DNA of 64,000 nt from the NCBI GenBank assembly GCA_030272585.1, contig BSYQ01000010.1:3472001-3536000 (forward strand), written 5' to 3'. The translations under genes and the position numbers were made by a program. This stretch comes from Bryopsis sp. KO-2023. Its lineage: Eukaryota > Chlorophyta > Ulvophyceae > Bryopsidales > Bryopsidaceae. The notes beneath the pieces were generated by a model. The model made no database searches. It was not told the origin of the DNA and worked only from the letters and a program-made list of their open reading frames with translations. Each line of letters opens with the position of its first letter. Position 1 is the stretch's first letter. Below, one piece after another: positions 16,201 to 61,016 of this stretch.

Positions 16201-19200
16201 ATGGTCAGTCCCTGTGTTGTTGCCAGAAGCAGGATTTTTCCACTAGTTGATAGAGTCTTTGTAAACCATCCTACGAGGGTACCAAGGCGCCGAGATTTTT
16301 TCACAAAAAGCGCTGCGGACGGGTTAGCTGTCGTTACGGCTGGCCTGGGGTTGGTGCCTCTCACGATAGCGATCGACGAGATCGCAGATAGGATCGCCGG
16401 TCGAGTACAGAAGATCACAAACGCTGACGCTAACGGAACTGCTTGCTACGTGGCGTTTCCAAAAGACTTCGACGAGGGAGATCGCAACACCTGCTATCCT
16501 GTGGTGGTGCTAGTTCACACTCGCGTAACGGCACTTTTACCCAAATCGTACCCACAACATACCCAAGTACCCAAACAATACCCATCAGATACCCAAACCG
16601 TACCCAACATTGGGTACGTTTTGGGTAATTACCCACCTCACTACCCAAACTGTACCCAAACCATACCCAATCCATGCCCAATAGTGGGTAGAATTGGGTA
16701 AGTACCGCACACATACCACAGGCCTATGGTAAGCGAGATATGCTTGGTATGTCGTGGGTACGCTTTGGGTAGTACCCAATGTTTCCCAAAAGAATTATAG
16801 GGATGGGTACGTGTTGGGTAAAGATTGGGTACTTTTTGGCAGAACTACTTGTTGGGTACCCAAACTTTACCCAAATATACCCGGAGCATACCCACATGTG
16901 GTACGTATTTGGTACGTTGTGGGTAGTACCCAATATTGACCCAAACTATGCAAAAGCATGGGTACGTTTTGGGTATTGTTTGGGTACTTTTTGGCATAAC
17001 TACCACATGTACCCATACATTACCTAGATTCGACCAAAACGTGCCCAAAACATACCCAAAACGTGCCCAAAACGTGTCAAAATGTGACACGTAATGGGTA
17101 CAATGTGGGCAATACCCAGCCCTACTCCTTTAGAGTAAGTCACACAATTGCGGCGCAGAAGCCACATGACGGACTCATTAAACTTGCCGAAGATCTCTGT
17201 CTGCGTTGTTGAACAACGACAACGTTTCTGTTCGCGCAGCTTGCTCGCCCCGCTTCAGAGTCGCGCTTGTGATGCGACCTACAAGCTCGCCATCCCCGCT
17301 TCAGAGTCGCGCCTGCGATGCGACCTGGAAGCATTGGACGGTGCCTTGGGCCTCTGATGAAAACGCTGGTATCACCCTGAGGATCTATCGCTGACATGCG
17401 TCAATGGGCACAGGCTATGATGCTTTCGTGGAGGCGGTCGGCTTCCTCCCTATGTCGAGGCTTCACCCACGTGGTCGGTGATGTTCCACTTCTCTGCCCA
17501 GCATGTGCAATATTCTAGGTCAGGTAACATAATAAAACTGCACAAGGTTTAAGCAGCAACATGAATAGGGATATTTCATCTAAAAAAAGTATTATGATGT
17601 TGTTGCCTTTCTGATTTTTTTTTGGCCCTAAAGAGAGGCCTGTGAACGTTTTTTACAGGGGGAGGGAGGGCTCCTTAGAATGAAATTTGTTTCAGGTGTT
17701 TGTAAGGCGAGCATATGTGCTTGCTTTGGTTAAGAAAAAGCCTTTTTCAGGACAGATTGGAATTGAGAGGATGAACCTGCATTCTGTGTGGCCCTGTACA
17801 CGAGAAAATAACATATAAGAAGGGACAAGGTGACATCAACATTTGGGCTGCCCGGTTCTTGTTCTTGTGTGAAAGTGTATTCACACATACGGTGAAAAAC
17901 AGAGTTCTTTGATTTTCCAGGTATTTGTATCCATGTTCCTACTTTAAGCATATAATTTATTAGGCCTCACAGAAATCTATTCTTGCAGAAACTTTGCTGA
18001 AACAGCGTGTTTCATAGGGGGGATCTAATCAGATCCCAGTAATGCCAGTTGGAAATCTCTTGTCAGAAAAAGAATAAACAAAAGATTGAAAAAAATGCAT
18101 CAGCTGAAGCGTGCCAAACCTTGTATGTGCATTTCCTCTGATGCAGAAAAGAAGAGTCAGAGGATTGGGTTCAAGATATTGAAAATCCAAGGCTAGCAAT
18201 CTCCGAAAAGAACTGAGGGGGACAAGGTGGTTGAAGACTCTTCAAAGGGAATTAGACTCGACACCCCTTTTTGAGAATTGAGGTCCCAAACAAATTTGAA
18301 TGAGGGATGTTGCTTGTTTTGATGTGCACAAATAGATGCACTTGTATGCATTTGGAGGTTGAGGGCTGGATGTGAATGAAGGAACAAGTGTTCTTGTAAA
18401 TTATTTCTTTTTTGTCACTTTTGTTGTTCTTGGCAGATTAGGTTTGAACTAGACACCACCCGATTTGTACCTGATCTATAACAAATGATTGATAGCGGGT
18501 GGCTGCCCAAAGCGTACCCAATACATACCCACTATGCGTTTATGGGTAAATATAGGGTACTTTCTGTATAATACCCAATTCATACCCATACAATGTGGTA
18601 AGGATTGGGTAGGACCCAGTACATACCCACCGACTTTGGGTATCTTTTGGGTACTACCCAATGCATACCCGTCTCGTTGTGGGTATGTATCGGGTACTAC
18701 CCAGTCCTTACCCACATTGAATGGGTATGAATTGGGTAGTACCCAATTCCTACCCACCAAGTCCGGGTATCGTTTGGGTAGTACCCAATTCATACCCACC
18801 AAGTTCGGGTATCGTTTGGGTACTACCCAATTCATACCCACCAACTTTGGGTATCGTTTGGGTACTACCCGATCCGTACCAAGCAACTCCGATAACTTCC
18901 CAAATCGTACCCAAATCTACCCAAATCGTACCCATAGAATACCCAAACTAGGGTATACCCAAATATACCCAAAATTACCCAATTCATGCCATTAAAAAAC
19001 GGGTAGTCCGCGGGTAGTTTTGGGTACGAATTGGGTAATTTTCGTAACGTGAGTGTCACCAGATTTTTGGACTGCAGAAGCGCGAGGTTGACCTCTGCGA
19101 CGAGCTCGCCGGTCAAGGGTACATCGCTGTGGCGGTCGACACTTTCGATGGAAAGTCGTCGACCTGGATCCCACGGGCGATCACTTTCGTGTATCAGAAA

Positions 19201-53346: not shown

Positions 53347-56300
53347 TCAAAGTGTAGGCCATTTGGTCATATCCCAGAACCCCTTTCCTTCCAAATCTAC
53401 ATTTCCCCCTGAAACCACCAAGCAAATTCTGGAGCAACACGCATAGGCCGGATTCGACTTGAACTCTCTCGACAAGACAGCAGCCAGGCTCACCGCTCCA
53501 CTTGGCTCCACTGCAACCTAATGTACAAATGTAAAACGTAATTTCACACAAATGATGTCTGACTGAACCAGCCGATGGGACAGAGCTGATTCCCACGATA
53601 CTCCTACATATCTCACAGGAATTGATTAGAAAAAGACAGCTGGGATTCACCCCTTTGCCTAATTTGAAAAGACGAAACAAAACCGAGAGGAGAATGGCCG
53701 CATATCACCTTGAGTTTTTCATAGCACAATTGAACTGCATGCAGAATTTCCTCCTCGCTGACTGTCACAACCCCATCCACCAGATCCCTGATGATTGGCC
53801 AGGTCAAATCTCCAGGTTTGCCTGATGTAATACAAAACAAAGCACTCTAAATCGATTAGGATGGAGCCTTAACCTCAAATCGTGGATGCGTTCCATTAAA
53901 GGGTTTACGGACTTCATTCCCTTACCCATTAAGCCGTCGGCTGCTGTTTTGGGAAAAGGGCAATCGACCAATTCGCCTGCTTGCATGCTCTTGGCCAGAT
54001 CAGCAGCATTGTTCGTCCCCGTTGGCTCAGCTGCTATGACTTTGATGTCGGGATGGATCGATTTTATGGCAATCAGAACTCCTGCTAACAAACCCCCTCC
54101 AGACACTGGCACCACCACAGCATCCACCCCGCTGGGAATCTAAAGAAACCATCCATCCCAAAAGAAGAAAAAATAATGAATGCAAGAAAGAAAAAAAACG
54201 GGGGTGGTGGGGGGGGGGGGCGGTTTTATGTTGAGCAGCGAACTACAAACTTGAATTTGACGTTATTGTTTTATCGTATGGTGTGGTGCCATCCCCGGCA
54301 AGGTTTGCATAAGGATTCCAGGCTTGTTCCAACAGATCTTAATTAGAAGAAGGAAATGCGTTTCTGACCTGATCCAATATCTCCAGCCCAATGGTGCCTT
54401 GTACGCTCATGACCGGCCCGAAATTGTATGAGGAAATCATATTGGCTTGCGTTTCACGCCGAACTTTTTCGCATGTTGCGGCTCGAGATTCCATGGAGCG
54501 ATCGGCATAAGTCACCAGCCCTGAAGAGCACACACACACACACCACGCACCGATTTTCGATCCTTTTTTCATCTTCAGTTTTATTCTGTTTTTGATTCTC
54601 ATACCCAAAGAATATGCCCACTGCTCAAAAGTGTCGGGAAGAGAGTCACAAGCTTAAAACCACCTGTTAGATTTTTTTTCTTTCTATTTATCGGGGTCTT
54701 CGGCTTTCCCCCACAGCATGGCCTCATATGATATCCCCACTTCTGAACGGAAATAGTCCATCCCTCATCAGTAAAACCACACAAGAAATTCGCTCATCTG
54801 AAAGTCGACAAATGAGCTAGAGATGGTACCTCCATGAGATTTGATCGCATGGACTTTGAATCTTGGAGTGCTTTTGGGGACGATCACAAATGCCGGAATC
54901 CTTCGAAGTTTTGCAGCCAAAGCAAGAGCACCCCCATGGTTGCCAGAACTGCAAAATAAAGAACATTTTGTTCAATTTCGAAACGCATCTTTTTTTTGGA
55001 GGCCAAAAAAAGATTGAGCAGAGGAAACATCAAATTTGTGTACCTGTGAGTTATGACTCCATTGGCAGCATCCTCATCGGAAAGAGAAAACACAGCATTG
55101 CAGGCTCCACGAAATTTGAACGCCCCCCTTCATTATTAACATTCGGTGTCAATTCGTGTTGGCAAGATGAAATAAATATGTATGTACTGTCCAATTGGTG
55201 TTTGTTTTACAGAAATGTTCATACAGACCCAAATCTGCCCGCGACTCTTCGCTTTCACATGTATGTACTGTATGTACGTATAGTTCGAGAGCTCAATCCG
55301 CAGTTTGGCTTTTCCGCTCGTGTCGAGACGTACCCTATTTGAAAAGTTTACTTGGTGGCGTTAGTCACCGTTATTATCAGTTAAACAGTTCGTATGGGTG
55401 GGTGTTTTGGTTGACTATTGCTGGCACCTGTCCAGTTAGTATTTAGAGAGCAGATGCAATTGAGCATTTGTATTTTCTTCTTTCGTCGTCTCTGAAAGAC
55501 CACCTTGCCCAGAAGTCGGGCGCACCCCTTCGGGGAGTATTCTGCATGGACAGAATTTCCGCAGACCTTGTCGAACTTTGTCTTCGTCTCACTGGTGAAC
55601 GCCCCACGCGTCCAGTGCAAACCTATTTTTTGGAAAACCCTGCGCACATTGCGCACGTTGCTGGTCGGAACCCTGTACCTCGTCCAGTGGGCGTGGAGTT
55701 CGGACGTTGGTTCGACATCACCGACACCACACCAGGAGCTCGTTTGGCGTCGCAATTGAAGGACGCCCCAGGCTTCCTCCAGGAATATATTTCGTGGGCA
55801 CCCACTGTATCTCTGCTGTTCGACTGGACAGCCAGGTTCGCCTCGCTGGTTGCGCATGACAACACGCACCCCAGTCTCAAGGAAGCCCTCTATCCTTTCC
55901 TCGCTGCTCTCTACCAAATCATTGAGTTGCAAACAACCCTGGTCAAAGTGCGTCAAACCCAAGCACAATACGCCAACACAGCTCACGCAGGCTACTGGAA
56001 AGTCTTGCAGACGAACCTCAGGCTCCAACACCACCTGGGCGAATTCGACAGCGCCCTCTCCAGGGAAACGTTTGACAAACTCAAAAAGGACCTCCTGGCT
56101 CAGCAACTCAAGCAGCTCGCCAAGGACGCCAACAAGTCGGGAAATCAGCGCGGCTCAGGAAACGGAAACAGAGGCTACCAGGGTCAAAACAGTCAACAGG
56201 GTCAACAGGGTCAACAGTCGGGTCAGTCGTCGAAGCGCGGGCCCAAGACCGAATAGTCCGTCAGAATGGCTCCAGACTCGCCCAAACGCACTCTACCACA

Positions 56301-59300
56301 GGGTGCGCGCGTCGTTGGCGACTTGGAGGCGCATCAACGCGCCACGCAAGGTCATGAATTGGATTTCCCGAGGTATTCGACTCCCATGGGTCAACCGCCC
56401 GCCACCTCCCTTTTTTCATGGGGCCTTTCGGGTCCCAGAGGAGAAGGCGACCGCGTGGAAAGCATCGATCCAGGACTACCTACAGAAGGGCGCGATCAAG
56501 GAAATCCCTTTCTCGGAAGCGACTCACCTTTCTCGTTGTTTCCTCGTCCCCAAACAGAATTCGACGGCGTGGCGGCTGATCGTGGATTTGCGTCACGTCA
56601 ACTCATACATCGAGAAGCGGCCGATCAAGTACGACTCCCTGCGTCAATTTTCTCATCAACTCAAACGCGGGATGTACCTCCTCCAGTTCGACCTCCAGGA
56701 TGCGTACCATATACTACACATCCAACCCCAGGACGCCAAGGTACTGCAGTTTTCGGCGATCATGCCCAACGAGTCACAACCTCGGGCCTATCAATGCATC
56801 GCCCTCCCGTTTGGGCTATCAGTCAGCCCTTACTACTACGTGACTACTATGAAACCCGTCACGAGGTTCCTACGCAGCCCCCAGGAAGCTACGAGTCACA
56901 CGATTCCGGCCTCTTTCCTTGGAGCCCTACACCAAGAAAACGCCCTACACGATTTCTGGAGATGGAACCCTACCACGGCACAGATCCCCTACATAGACGA
57001 TTTTCTGGTGGCGCAAGAGCGATTCAAGGATCTCCAACGCTGGGGATCCCTCGCTCGTCGGATTTTGGATCTCCTTGGATTGAAGGTACAGGAGGCCAAG
57101 AGCGACTGGACCCCCAGGCAACAGCGCGAGCACCTCGGGATCGTGATCGATACCCAACGTGGACTTTTTTTGGTTCCTCCTCGTCAGTGGGAGAAGATTC
57201 TCTGTTTGGGTCGCGAGCTCCTCAATATGCATCGAGAGGGCCGCAAGATCCCAATACGCATGGTGGCGCGCTTTTGTGGAAAATGTCAGTCCCTGTCACT
57301 GGCTATTCCTCACACTCCAGTTTTTCTAATCCCACTGCACCAACTGATCGCCCACAAGAAATCATGGTCGGATCGCATGCGTTTGGATGGGGACTCGGTG
57401 GAGGCGCTGAAGCTGTGGATCACTTTACCTCGTCGGTGGCGCAGCAGAGTTTGGTACCCGGATTTATGTCCTCTGATGGGGGATCTCGCGACAGACGCGT
57501 CCAATATTGGCTGGGGAGCGACCCTCACGCTCACACATCCTCAGGCGCAGCGGATTCACTCTTCGGCTATGGCACAGAGCTCGGACAGGATGTTTATCGC
57601 CCGGGGATTTTGGGATTGCCAGGACCAACTCCTCCACATCAACGTGAAGGAGTTCAAGGCTTTGCGACTCGCCCTCAAGGCTTTCGCTCAGCTCAATCTA
57701 TTTCCGGTGACGCACCCCACAGAGCACAACCAATTTATCCGTTTACTGACCACAGTGGATTCCACAGTTGTTTACCACCTCCTCCGCCGAGGTCACACAT
57801 TGGCCCCTGCGCTGAAGCGCGAACTACAGTCGGTTGTTTGGATGGCTCACTCTCTCGGAATCCTTCTCCAACCAGTTTGGATCCCGTCCCACGAGAATGT
57901 CCTCCCGGACCGCCTATCCCGCGATCTGCTGGGGCCCCCGATGCTGACATCGCAAGAGAAGTTGCATCCATCCCTCTTTCAACAGGCGCAACGCCAACTG
58001 GGGATGATCACAACAATCGACAGATTTGCGTCCTACCTCAACACGCAGCTCCCACGTTTCAACAGTTTGGAGATCGAACCCTACACGGAAGGAGTGGACG
58101 CCTTTCTACAGACGAACTGGCGGTCGGAGATCAACTGGATGAACCCGCCTTGGAGTGCCCTCCCCAAGCTGATAGGATTTCTCAGCCGCGACAAGCTGAT
58201 CCGGGGATTGCTGGTCACACCATTTTGGCCCCACTCGACCTGGTTCCGTATGCTGAGCAACATGGCAGTCAAGCGATGGATGATCAAGGCACGTCGGGTC
58301 CAGTTTGTGCCCCCTCGTCAATCTCCATCCCAGTGGGATCTGATCGTCTGGGCAGTCGGACGACCTCTGAAGCCACGGAACTAAGTGACGACACCTACTC
58401 AGCGGAAGAGGCTCTCTGGTTGCAGACATCTGTGATGGATTCGTCTGCCAATCCCATGGACATCTGTCGGAAATTCGCTAAGTTCCGCATATTTTGCGCG
58501 GACACACGTCGCCAGGCTTTCCCTGCATCCAAGGCTGCGATCTACATGTACCTGAGACATTTGAGAGAATCGGGGATCAAGAGCTCGTCGGGTCGCACAT
58601 ACCTCTCGGCCATCTCGACATATCACCAGATCCATGGCCTCCACAATTTTTCCGCCCATGACGCTCTCACCAAGAGACTGTTTCGTGCTTGGGAGAATAA
58701 CACCCCGGTGGACGCTTTCTCCCCACAGGAGAGAGACGTTCCGGTTCCAGTGTTTTGGGCTATTTTGGATGTGGGAATCACCTCGTCGGAGTTGAAGATT
58801 ATACGCGCGGCAGTTGAGACATGCCTCGCCTATGTATTTTTCTCGCGAAGCTCGTCGCATCACAAGATGCTCGTGGGGGATCTGCGGTGGGATCGGACCA
58901 ATATTTCGTTTCAGGAACGACATTTCAAAGGAAAGACGGCACAGACACAACGGATGAGGCAACGAACATTTGATGCGCGTGGAGTTCCCAGTTTGATTAC
59001 GCTGCTGGGTTTATATCGACAACACATGATTTCCGAATGGGGAGGCACCTGGCCTGATTCGGCGTCATTCTGGCAACTACCACAGGAAGCGCAACCTACA
59101 GCCGTGGGCATCTCGAAGATGTTCACTTTTCTCAAGGACTCGACACCATCCATTTGGCCCCCGGGTGACTGGCGGCACCACGATCTCCGCGCAGGAGGAG
59201 CTAGCAGCATGCTGGCATTGGGAATCGACGAGGATAAGGTGAAGTCGTGGGGAGGTTGGTCTCTCAGAAGCACGGCGTTTACTCGCTACATTAACCCCAG

Positions 59301-61016
59301 TCGCATTCCCACTGCGGGTGATTTTCGTTTGTTTGGCTGGTTACTCATGGGGGGACAGGATTTTATGGCTAGGCTGGGCCATTTATTTTCGTCAGTTCCG
59401 GATCCAGGGGTGTGATTTTCTCTTTTTTCATGTGAGGTCCAGTTCTCGGGTGTTGTATGCTGGGGATCTTGATTTTTTTTCGGGACAAACATGATTTTGG
59501 GATCTTTCAGTGACTCCGGTTTTTGATTATGGGCAATTGTATGCTCAAGTGGTTGCTCTCAGGGTTGGGAGTATCGATCTGTGTGTTTCGGATAATACTT
59601 GGTGGCGTTAGTCACCGTTATTATCAGTTAAACAGTTCGTATGGGTGGGTGTTTTGGTTGACTATTGCTGGCACCTGTCCAGTTAGTATTTAGAGAGCAG
59701 ATGCAATTGAGCATTTGTATTTTCTTCCCCACCCTGGCCCACCCTGTTATGTGAACACGTGTTTTATTGTAAGAGATGAAAGTTGAATGGCAATTGTATG
59801 CTCAAGTGGTTGCTCTCAGGGTTGGGAGTATCGATCTGTGTGTTTCGGATAATCGCACTTGAAGAACAGCCGCCGATTAGAAATATCGTCTAAGGACGGA
59901 CTGGTCAGCACCTGTAAGAAAAACAACGAATGAGGCCAGCAGATTCAGAAAGGAAACACCTTCTAAGGGCCTGTTCAGATTGAACGAACGAACGCGCAAA
60001 ACCGCCCACGTGCGGCGACACGTCGGAAATTTTACGTGTTTTCGAACGAACGCGCAAACGAATCTGCATCCCGTTCGTTCGTGTTTTTTGAACGAACGAA
60101 CGCGCAAATCTTACGTAATTTGGAACGAACGTGCAAACTCGCAGCCAAACCAAAACAGGGCCCCGTTCGCGCCGCCGCAGACGTTCGTCGCGTCTGAAAG
60201 AGCGTCAAGCGGCGGCAAGACCCATCCCGCGCGACCATCGCGAACTTTCGAGTTGACTCACTTGCTCGTTAATCACGAAAATGATCACACAACACCAAAA
60301 TTAGCGTCATCACCCGTTCGTTCGTGTGGTGTCGTTATTCGATCTGAACACGAACGCGCGTTCGTTAGTTCGTTAGTAAGCGCGCGTTCATTCAATCTGA
60401 ACAGCCCCTAAGGGCCTGTTCAGATTGAACGAACGAACGCGCAAAACCGCCCACGTGCGGCGACACGTCGGAAATTTTACGTGTTTTCGAACGAACGCGC
60501 AAACGAATCTGCATCCCGTTCGTTCGTGTTTTTTGAACGAACGAACGCGCAAATCTTACGTAATTTGGAACGAACGTGCAAACTCGCAGCCAAACCAAAA
60601 CAGGGCCCCGTTCGCGCCGCCGCAGACGTTCGTCGCGTCTGAAAGAGCGTCAAGCGGCGGCAAGACCCATCCCGCGCGACCATCGCGAACTTTCGAGTTG
60701 ACTCACTTGCTCGTTAATCACGAAAATGATCACACAACACCAAAATTAGCGTCATCACCCGTTCGTTCGTGTGGTGTCGTTATTCGATCTGAACACGAAC
60801 GCGCGTTCGTTAGTTCGTTAGTAAGCGCGCGTTCATTCAATCTGAACAGCCCCTAAGGACGGACTGACTGATCAGCGAGGATAGCAGATTCAGAAAGGAA
60901 ACACCGTCGAACTGGAGTTGGATTTGAGGGACCCTTACGGGAGTGACAATTGCATGTGAGGCGATCGTCTTTCTAGCTTTTTCGATAGCTTCCAAAGAGG
61001 TGGCGTAAGGGCTCAT
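53347..61016 (-). CDS. SRR: serine racemase / threonine dehydratase family (PLP fold-type II), exon 2 interrupted by a retrotransposon
   Basis: Exons in minus order: 61016-60939; exon 2 split into 59911-59854 and 55349-55334; 55127-55044; 54948-54830; 54520-54369; 54139-53926; 53821-53709; 53517-53347. With the 4,504-bp insert removed all phases match, giving 334 aa, normal for serine racemase. Exon 1 ends HAIVTP with donor GTAAGG; exon 2 starts VLTSPSLDD. Family blocks: LFFKCE, GGAFKFRGACNAVFSL with the PLP lysine (about 55), HSSGNHGGALALAAKL (phosphate loop), VPVSGGGLLAG (glycine-rich loop), GDLTWPIIRDLVDGVVTVSE and the C-terminal EPSGAVSLAAVL. The enzyme racemises or dehydrates serine/threonine using PLP. 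As sequenced the gene is broken in codon 46 (the Glu of KCE) unless the insert is removed from RNA. Intron 1 also contains two tandem MITEs and a duplicated exon-2 stub. Confidence 0.88.
55350..55480 (+). repeat. split direct repeat A1
   Basis: 131-bp left terminal repeat, starting ACTTGGTGGCG and ending GTATTTTCTTC. Identical by eye to A2 at 59597-59727. Confidence 0.9.
55546..56256 (+). CDS. retroelement ORF1 (gag-like)
   Basis: 236 aa from the first ATG after A1 (MDRISADLVELCLRLTGERP). A helical N-terminal part is followed by a charged helix (LKKDLLAQQLKQLAKDAN) and a Gly/Gln/Asn/Arg-rich tail (GNGNRGYQGQNSQQGQQG) ending RGPKTE. The position before RT and the nucleic-acid-binding-like tail fit a Gag of DIRS-order elements, which often lack zinc knuckles. 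No other family recognised. Confidence 0.7.
   Translation: MDRISADLVELCLRLTGERPTRPVQTYFLENPAHIAHVAGRNPVPRPVGVEFGRWFDITDTTPGARLASQLKDAPGFLQEYISWAPTVSLLFDWTARFASLVAHDNTHPSLKEALYPFLAALYQIIELQTTLVKVRQTQAQYANTAHAGYWKVLQTNLRLQHHLGEFDSALSRETFDKLKKDLLAQQLKQLAKDANKSGNQRGSGNGNRGYQGQNSQQGQQGQQSGQSSKRGPKTE
55850..58384 (+). CDS. retroelement ORF2: reverse transcriptase / RNase H
   Basis: 844-codon open frame. The part before about 56260 overlaps gag in another frame and may not be translated, so a frameshift or internal start is likely. RT blocks: LVPKQNSTAWRLIVDLRHVN, LLQFDLQDAYHILHI, IALPFGLSVSP, and the catalytic QIPYIDDFLVAQE; then a QQREHLGIVID block. RNase H follows (ATDASNIGWGATL, HINVKEFKALRLAL, TVDSTVVYHLLRRG, and SHENVLPDRLSRD). 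A C-terminal tail with FASYLNTQLPRFNSLE and WMNPPWSALPKL matches the region after RNase H in DIRS/PAT elements; its NPPW may be the remnant of a methyltransferase-like motif. No integrase or protease seen. Confidence 0.88.
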   Translation: MRMTTRTPVSRKPSILSSLLSTKSLSCKQPWSKCVKPKHNTPTQLTQATGKSCRRTSGSNTTWANSTAPSPGKRLTNSKRTSWLSNSSSSPRTPTSREISAAQETETEATRVKTVNRVNRVNSRVSRRSAGPRPNSPSEWLQTRPNALYHRVRASLATWRRINAPRKVMNWISRGIRLPWVNRPPPPFFHGAFRVPEEKATAWKASIQDYLQKGAIKEIPFSEATHLSRCFLVPKQNSTAWRLIVDLRHVNSYIEKRPIKYDSLRQFSHQLKRGMYLLQFDLQDAYHILHIQPQDAKVLQFSAIMPNESQPRAYQCIALPFGLSVSPYYYVTTMKPVTRFLRSPQEATSHTIPASFLGALHQENALHDFWRWNPTTAQIPYIDDFLVAQERFKDLQRWGSLARRILDLLGLKVQEAKSDWTPRQQREHLGIVIDTQRGLFLVPPRQWEKILCLGRELLNMHREGRKIPIRMVARFCGKCQSLSLAIPHTPVFLIPLHQLIAHKKSWSDRMRLDGDSVEALKLWITLPRRWRSRVWYPDLCPLMGDLATDASNIGWGATLTLTHPQAQRIHSSAMAQSSDRMFIARGFWDCQDQLLHINVKEFKALRLALKAFAQLNLFPVTHPTEHNQFIRLLTTVDSTVVYHLLRRGHTLAPALKRELQSVVWMAHSLGILLQPVWIPSHENVLPDRLSRDLLGPPMLTSQEKLHPSLFQQAQRQLGMITTIDRFASYLNTQLPRFNSLEIEPYTEGVDAFLQTNWRSEINWMNPPWSALPKLIGFLSRDKLIRGLLVTPFWPHSTWFRMLSNMAVKRWMIKARRVQFVPPRQSPSQWDLIVWAVGRPLKPRN
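56266..59415 (+). CDS. retroelement ORF3: tyrosine recombinase (C-terminal third of a 1,049-codon open frame)
   Basis: The recombinase domain occupies about 58,400-59,415 (residues about 710-1049 of the open frame). An SAM-like N-terminal part (FAKFRIFCADTRRQAF, YMYLRHLRESG, TYLSAISTYHQIHG) precedes the catalytic part, with an Arg in AYVFFSRSSSHHK, then HHDLRAGGASSMLALG (H-x-x-R), SWGGWSLRSTA and the nucleophile Tyr in FTRYINPS. This R-H-R-W-Y pattern is that of retroelement tyrosine recombinases. The frame is open without a stop back to 56266, overlapping the whole RT gene in another frame. The upstream ~700 codons are Pro/Ser/Gly-rich and probably an open shadow of RT; the true start is likely near the RT stop. 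Confidence 0.8.
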   Translation: MAPDSPKRTLPQGARVVGDLEAHQRATQGHELDFPRYSTPMGQPPATSLFSWGLSGPRGEGDRVESIDPGLPTEGRDQGNPFLGSDSPFSLFPRPQTEFDGVAADRGFASRQLIHREAADQVRLPASIFSSTQTRDVPPPVRPPGCVPYTTHPTPGRQGTAVFGDHAQRVTTSGLSMHRPPVWAISQPLLLRDYYETRHEVPTQPPGSYESHDSGLFPWSPTPRKRPTRFLEMEPYHGTDPLHRRFSGGARAIQGSPTLGIPRSSDFGSPWIEGTGGQERLDPQATARAPRDRDRYPTWTFFGSSSSVGEDSLFGSRAPQYASRGPQDPNTHGGALLWKMSVPVTGYSSHSSFSNPTAPTDRPQEIMVGSHAFGWGLGGGAEAVDHFTSSVAQQSLVPGFMSSDGGSRDRRVQYWLGSDPHAHTSSGAADSLFGYGTELGQDVYRPGILGLPGPTPPHQREGVQGFATRPQGFRSAQSISGDAPHRAQPIYPFTDHSGFHSCLPPPPPRSHIGPCAEARTTVGCLDGSLSRNPSPTSLDPVPRECPPGPPIPRSAGAPDADIAREVASIPLSTGATPTGDDHNNRQICVLPQHAAPTFQQFGDRTLHGRSGRLSTDELAVGDQLDEPALECPPQADRISQPRQADPGIAGHTILAPLDLVPYAEQHGSQAMDDQGTSGPVCAPSSISIPVGSDRLGSRTTSEATELSDDTYSAEEALWLQTSVMDSSANPMDICRKFAKFRIFCADTRRQAFPASKAAIYMYLRHLRESGIKSSSGRTYLSAISTYHQIHGLHNFSAHDALTKRLFRAWENNTPVDAFSPQERDVPVPVFWAILDVGITSSELKIIRAAVETCLAYVFFSRSSSHHKMLVGDLRWDRTNISFQERHFKGKTAQTQRMRQRTFDARGVPSLITLLGLYRQHMISEWGGTWPDSASFWQLPQEAQPTAVGISKMFTFLKDSTPSIWPPGDWRHHDLRAGGASSMLALGIDEDKVKSWGGWSLRSTAFTRYINPSRIPTAGDFRLFGWLLMGGQDFMARLGHLFSSVPDPGV
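59532..59596 (+). repeat. split direct repeat B1
   Basis: 65 bp from GGCAATTGTATG to TTTCGGATAAT, directly abutting A2. Identical by eye to B2. Confidence 0.9.
59597..59727 (+). repeat. split direct repeat A2
   Basis: 131-bp internal copy of A1. The B1-A2 junction reads GGATAAT|ACTTGG. Confidence 0.9.
59789..59853 (+). repeat. split direct repeat B2
   Basis: 65-bp right terminal copy of B1. It abuts serine racemase exon 2 (CGCACTTGAAGAAC on the plus strand). Confidence 0.9.
59967..60408. mobile_element. PIF/Harbinger-type MITE, copy 1
   Basis: 442 bp starting GGGCCTGTTCAGATTGAACG and ending with the imperfect inverted repeat ATTCAATCTGAACAGCCCC, flanked by TAA (59964-59966 and 60409-60411). 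Many GAACGAACG/CGTTCGTTC motifs occur inside. The TAA duplication and GGGCCTGTT ends are typical of Harbinger/Tourist elements. No transposase. It lies in intron 1 of serine racemase. Confidence 0.78.
60412..60853. mobile_element. PIF/Harbinger-type MITE, copy 2 (tandem, identical)
   Basis: Second 442-bp copy, same orientation, sharing the middle TAA with copy 1 and followed by TAA at 60854-60856. Both copies translate to identical 143-codon frames, indicating near or complete identity and a recent origin. Confidence 0.78.

Follow-up and report, generated by a model that had tools for sequence, protein, structure and literature searches.

We describe a complete-looking tyrosine recombinase (YR) retrotransposon in the alga Bryopsis sp. 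KO-2023 that has recently inserted into, and splits, an exon of one of the two serine racemase genes of this genome. The element was found in the window—the whole 64,000-nucleotide stretch of DNA that was analyzed, positions 3472001-3536000 of contig C10 (BSYQ01000010.1) in a genome of 91.09 Mb on 28 contigs. On contig C28, two matches to photosystem reaction centres are strong and in keeping with an alga. The element most likely belongs to the PAT/TOC-like branch, with a cycle that would include the integration of a circle. Here we address its structure and coding capacity, its class, the gene that it interrupts, its junctions, its relatives in the genome, and an unusual reading frame that runs across its pol gene.

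On the plus strand the element occupies 55349-59853 (4505 nt, with one shared T counted at both ends); if the left T is assigned to the target, it runs from 55350 to 59853. Split direct repeats are laid out as A1-B1-A2-B2: A1 (55349-55480) and A2 (59596-59727) are 132 nt long and 100% identical, as are the 65-nt B1 (59532-59596) and B2 (59789-59853), and the B1 and A2 matches overlap by one T at position 59596. The junction of the circle is predicted to correspond to the point where B1 meets A2. The first reading frame, a gag-like ORF of 236 aa from its first ATG (55546-56256), has one Cys, lacks a Cys/His zinc knuckle, and ends in a Gln/Gly-rich tail. The pol frame, taken from stop to stop (55760-58384), holds a reverse transcriptase (RT) domain (56546-57145; Pfam RVT_1, E 4.4e-13) with a Y-I-D-D motif, an RNase H domain (57494-57910), and a methyltransferase-like (Dam) domain (58010-58381) with an NPPW motif and weak matches that fall below the curated cut-off. 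The YR frame (56257-59415) lies in the +2 frame over all of pol, without a stop, and includes the tyrosine recombinase domain at 58435-59412.

An alignment of the element with 11 same-genome relatives shows no variation at the aspartates of YIDD or at the RNase H acids D408, E460, D496, and D546 (RT protein numbering), and RNase H families are matched among members of this set. Likewise, all 10 aligned YR proteins, two of which are near-identical copies, share R124, K165, H249-x-x-R252, W275, and Y285. We take these invariant RT, RNase H, and YR residues to be the catalytic sets. A profile of the 10 YR proteins matches Cre (E 2.5e-9), and a profile match to Ty3 (7q5b) was obtained at E 5.3e-29. 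On the element itself, the Pfam families Phage_integrase (E 0.0039) and Dam (E 0.0073) both score below their cut-offs; no rve-type integrase is among the Pfam families matched at E<=10 in the three element proteins scanned. Single-sequence AlphaFold2 models have a low mean pLDDT, at 44.1 for the methyltransferase-like segment and 37.2 for the YR segment. Between the window copy and a second copy, L010, synonymous codon changes outnumber nonsynonymous ones by 71:15 in gag, 185:76 in RT, and 37:5 in YR—all three are under purifying selection. The repeats, ORFs, and profile matches bear out the initial annotation, which had proposed a complete YR retrotransposon with A1-B1-A2-B2 repeats, gag, RT/RNase H, and a tyrosine recombinase.

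The combination of RT/RNase H and a tyrosine recombinase, with no DDE integrase, is that of the DIRS order. We prefer a PAT/TOC-like assignment because pol and YR overlap, gag lacks a zinc knuckle, and a methyltransferase-like domain is weakly matched. The A1-B1-A2-B2 split direct repeats of PAT are present, as are two features of TOC3-like PAT elements, namely the absence of a gag zinc finger and a YR on the plus strand with pol. PAT elements without a zinc finger are described with the same A1-...-B1A2-B2 layout, the same gag/RT/RNase H/methyltransferase-like/YR order, a YR oriented as here, a gag that has no zinc finger, and an occurrence in algae (PMC4157794; PMC3266345); however, the methyltransferase match is weak here, and the likeness is one of described features. 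The original suggestion of PAT or Ngaro stands as far as a YR retroelement is concerned, with PAT/TOC-like as the better fit to published feature descriptions.

A Ngaro element would have the same repeats and the same cycle, with an RT of the Ngaro lineage and no real methyltransferase. Split direct repeats are common to Ngaro (PMC8547959) and PAT (PMC4157794), and Ngaro elements such as those of Cafeteria burkhardae also share the gag-RT/RNase H-YR arrangement and solo A-B remnants (PMC8547959). The Dam match of the isolated segment (58010-58381; E 0.0012) reaches 19 bits against a curated cut-off of 28.1, Dam is found at E<=1 in three of 10 isolated segments and not in the other seven, and the PDB profile search gave zero matches, all of which suits Ngaro; NCBIfam gave nothing relevant. 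Against it, at E<=0.1 the Dam family is matched by 4 of 12 RT proteins searched at full length (the best at 6.2e-5), and 3 of 11 members match a methyltransferase PHROG. DIRS methyltransferases are detectable with the same Pfam model (PMC3783388). Ngaro elements are also characterized, in the relevant part of PMC3266345, as lacking a methyltransferase and usually a pol/YR overlap, whereas the overlap here is complete. We consider a Ngaro identity unlikely.

Membership in two other groups was rejected. DIRS1 of Dictyostelium shares the pol/YR overlap, a circular intermediate model, and the lack of target duplication (PMC3266345; PMC5633606), but its terminal repeats are inverted and it carries internal complementary regions; in the present element none of the five inverted pairs listed lies at the ends, where split direct repeats stand instead. 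The DIRS1 circle junction is also of 3 bp, in contrast to the 1-bp shared base seen here (PMC3266345; PMC5633606). Kangaroo of Volvox likewise belongs to the PAT group, comes from an alga, and has no zinc finger (PMC4157794); however, the Kangaroo YR is inverted, whereas that of the element is on the plus strand. PAT and Ngaro elements had been called little studied in algae, which holds only in part—PAT-like elements have been reported in Chlamydomonas and relatives (PMC8226300), and both kinds, Ngaro as well as PAT-like, are on record from Ectocarpus (PMC12477816).

The serine racemase gene lies on the minus strand, with the element antisense to it. The gene model comprises exon 1 (60939-61016), exon 2 in two parts (5' part 59854-59911, continuous with the 3' part 55334-55349, after which the donor GTACGT follows), exon 3 (55044-55127), and exons 4-8 (54948-54830, 54520-54369, 54139-53926, 53821-53709, and 53517-53347). 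Joined at borders that are all AG/GT, the 8 exons give 1005 nt and 334 aa with zero internal stops. The best PDB match of the joined protein is serine racemase 5cvc (E 3.8e-99), and among the 60 PDB matches listed the top 6 all bear the name serine racemase, in some cases preceded by "probable". Exon 2 is the sole exon that is cut. The insertion point is at CDS position 136, after base 1 of codon 46, and the PLP lysine, Lys55 of GAFKF, follows nine codons later in exon 3.

A search of the genome with the left flank reached a second serine racemase gene on contig C8 (L029:5225-7309), which serves as an unoccupied counterpart; the 109-base right flank alone, as a genome query, matched nothing beyond the window itself, and a further, weaker match lies on C14. 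Exon by exon, the 8 exons of the C8 gene equal those of the C10 gene in length; its 334-aa frame is intact, and the two proteins are identical at 302 of 334 residues. Its unoccupied site reads GTTTCGCACTT and aligns without a gap over the join, where the window has GTT[T]–element–[T]CGCACTT. The joined frame and the gapless paralog confirm the proposed intra-exonic insertion, and the AG/GT gene model confirms that 59911-59854 and 55349-55334 form one minus-strand exon next to a GTACGT donor. The further claim that the split exon matches the active-site region is right as to serine racemase, but the GAFKF lysine is in the next exon.

Other repeats surround the element in this gene. Intron 1 contains a 442-nt element twice, in identical head-to-tail copies (59967-60408 and 60412-60853) spaced at a period of 445. 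The element has terminal inverted repeats of 24 nt, with 2 mismatches, and TAA stands on either side of the pair as well as between its members. This is a tandem pair of MITEs, presumably PIF/Harbinger-like, which is absent from the C8 paralog, where intron 1 measures 77 nt. Intron 2 holds an ~87-nt repeat at 55177-55263 that has at least 40 further genome matches of 88-100% identity and is missing from the C8 paralog; it is possibly a small mobile intronic repeat. Elsewhere in the window, 16538-18934 consists of arrays of imperfect TACCCAA-type tandem repeats.

The insertion would break the C10 gene copy and leave the intact paralog; its relevance to the host is softened because that second gene is intact. 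It is very unlikely that the gene still works with the insert tolerated, for example by being spliced out or bypassed. What speaks for tolerance is that every other exon of the C10 copy is intact and that the paralogs differ at a dN/dS of 0.32 (dS 0.143, dN 0.045); there is no clear sign of decay of the C10 copy, since of the 32 differing residues nine look derived in C10, seven in C8, and 16 are unclear. Against tolerance, the identical repeats suggest an element too young for decay to show, and the element is both intra-exonic and antisense; moreover, its ends are not GT-AG in gene orientation, on which ground splicing out was rejected. Although the insertion is known from assembled sequence, an assembly artefact or chimeric join is highly improbable, as the family recurs with the same ends but other flanks at L009, L010, and L011 (a copy with an internal deletion), the C8 paralog shows exactly the join that the two flanks make, and contig C10 is 5.1 Mb long.

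We now turn to the junctions, where one T is common to both ends. This shared T limits the precision of the boundaries to 1 bp: the ends given by the initial annotation are exact, up to that one T at both junctions. Similarly, its claim of no target duplication agrees with the C8 site in that nothing beyond one T is duplicated, but a 1-bp T duplication and a shared T look alike in sequence. The same T occurs at the left junction, the right junction, and the target in 6 of 6 both-ended insertions of the family (window, L009-L013), for which the chance expectation is 3.9e-4 (P(T)^6, with P(T)=0.27). Of the two bases before the shared T, the nearer is T in 5/6 and the farther is T in 6/6. The remnants L014 and L015, which have no left end, are outside this count; the right end of L015 does end in T, and that of L014 reads unlike the others.

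In other families, at least one base is shared at the junction in 11 of 12 sites (L017, L018, L020, L021, L022, L023, L024, L026, L034, L035, and L036), a count with no chance level attached and with same-family pairs, as judged by their ends, among the 12 (L017/L034, L018/L035, L020/L037, and L024/L026). Five elements in which the full A and B repeat set is not read (L016, L019, L025, L027, and L028) were left out of the 12. These families can evidently do without a strict core match, because L037 shares zero bases and L023, L024, and L036 have mismatches within the shared stretch. The B1/A2 join equals the right end plus the left end in the counted elements, with mismatches in L023, L024, L035, and L036.

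This junction pattern fits circle integration by the YR over a very short core. For DIRS1, a circle model with recombination at a 3-bp junction and no duplication left behind has been put forward (PMC3266345), and DIRS-1 circles are verified according to part of PMC5633606. In the cycle that we envisage, element RNA would be copied by RT/RNase H, with the internal B1-A2 join as the template from which both ends would be rebuilt. Joining of the B2 end to the A1 start would then give a circle in which a single T marks the junction, and the YR of the element would recombine this T with the T of a T-rich target—here exon 2 of the serine racemase gene. Such an exchange would leave one T per end and a target that is not duplicated.

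The family has four both-ended copies (window, L009, L010, and L011, the last with an internal deletion that removes part of pol) and the remnants L012-L015; A1/A2 and B1/B2 are identical in all four copies. L012 is a solo A-spacer-B remnant, a form expected from A1 x A2 recombination, and the Ngaro elements of Cafeteria are known to leave solo A-B remnants as well (PMC8547959). In 300-nt blocks the window copy and L009 are 97-100% alike, and L010 and L011 99-100%. Between these two subfamilies, similarity across the 15 blocks is 93-94% in the first, 94-99% in the last four, and 80-90% in the rest, so that window/L009 and L010/L011 are 10-20% apart over most of gag and pol and 1-6% apart in the final 1.2 kb, which covers YR and the 3' end. 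This mosaic similarity suggests recombination or template switching between the subfamilies.

More broadly, the element belongs to a large community of related elements in this genome: another 12 elements, from other families, have split direct repeats too, the YR protein has at least 123 genome matches at E<=0.001 (with some elements matched in several pieces), and at least 63 matches were scored for the RT among 1084 candidates. Outside the genome, a profile search of IMG/VR with the RT alignment gave zero relatives, and the YR search there gave one weak match (L032). The species genome set yielded one RT relative of 27% identity (L033, JAHDDY010000159.1) on a contig labelled as a Rhodobacteraceae MAG, possibly a eukaryotic contamination of a bacterial MAG.

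We next consider the reading frame across pol. In this family, the YR frame opens right after the gag stop (56256), in the same frame as gag, and is stop-free to 59415; over 56257-58384 it is thus a second frame across the whole RT/RNase H/methyltransferase-like gene with 0 stops. When the synonymous codons of pol were shuffled 1000 times, 19.6 stops were expected and 0 of 1000 shuffles were as low, while the third frame over the same pol has 25 stops versus 27.6 expected. Among 12 pol genes, 8 have 0 stops in the YR frame (window, L010, L018, L019, L021, L023, L024, and L026), window/L010 and L024/L026 being close relatives; the other four are below expectation but not at zero (L017, 21/34.0; L020, 19/30.5; L022, 5/23.4; and L016, 14/24.6).

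The amino acids of this frame behave differently from its stops. In window/L010, amino acid identity is 65.8% in the overlapped YR frame, 65.5% in the third frame, and 89.2% in pol; in L024/L026 the values are 78.1%, 77.9%, and 93.2%. These two pairs are the informative ones for frame drift, as window/L009 is too alike (98.4 and 98.4%). With zero stops and yet an identity no better than that of the third frame, the constraint appears to be on stops only: stops in the overlapped frame are selected against, and its residues seem not to be under selection. Weak blastp similarity of some overlapped frames between families (best 5e-14, L019/L021) may only mirror the conservation of pol.

A long pol/YR overlap is not new in itself, since 28 DIRS1-like elements have been surveyed and half of them show it (PMC3266345), but a constraint on stops alone finds no mention in the parts we consulted of the literature searched; what is new here is a stop-free YR frame through pol with apparently unconstrained amino acids. 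Simple readthrough from gag is opposed by the other families because their gag-like ORF is out of the YR frame: if the first long ORF is read as gag, it falls outside that frame in L018, L020-L024, L026, and L035-L037. Additionally, the open YR frame begins inside pol in L020, L022, and L037. We tentatively propose, at somewhat less than an even chance, that the YR is translated via an ~2.1-kb stop-free, disposable leader over pol that begins near the gag stop (by readthrough here and re-initiation elsewhere), combined with a family-specific core of about one base.

The occupied and unoccupied serine racemase genes form a natural before/after pair within one genome, which resolves the integration of a YR retrotransposon with split repeats at single-base precision. 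The many related elements in the same genome make the core rule testable. On the host side, the insertion is a fresh mutation in one of two serine racemase genes. For the family as a whole, the stop-free but otherwise seemingly unconstrained frame over pol offers a handle on how the recombinase is expressed.
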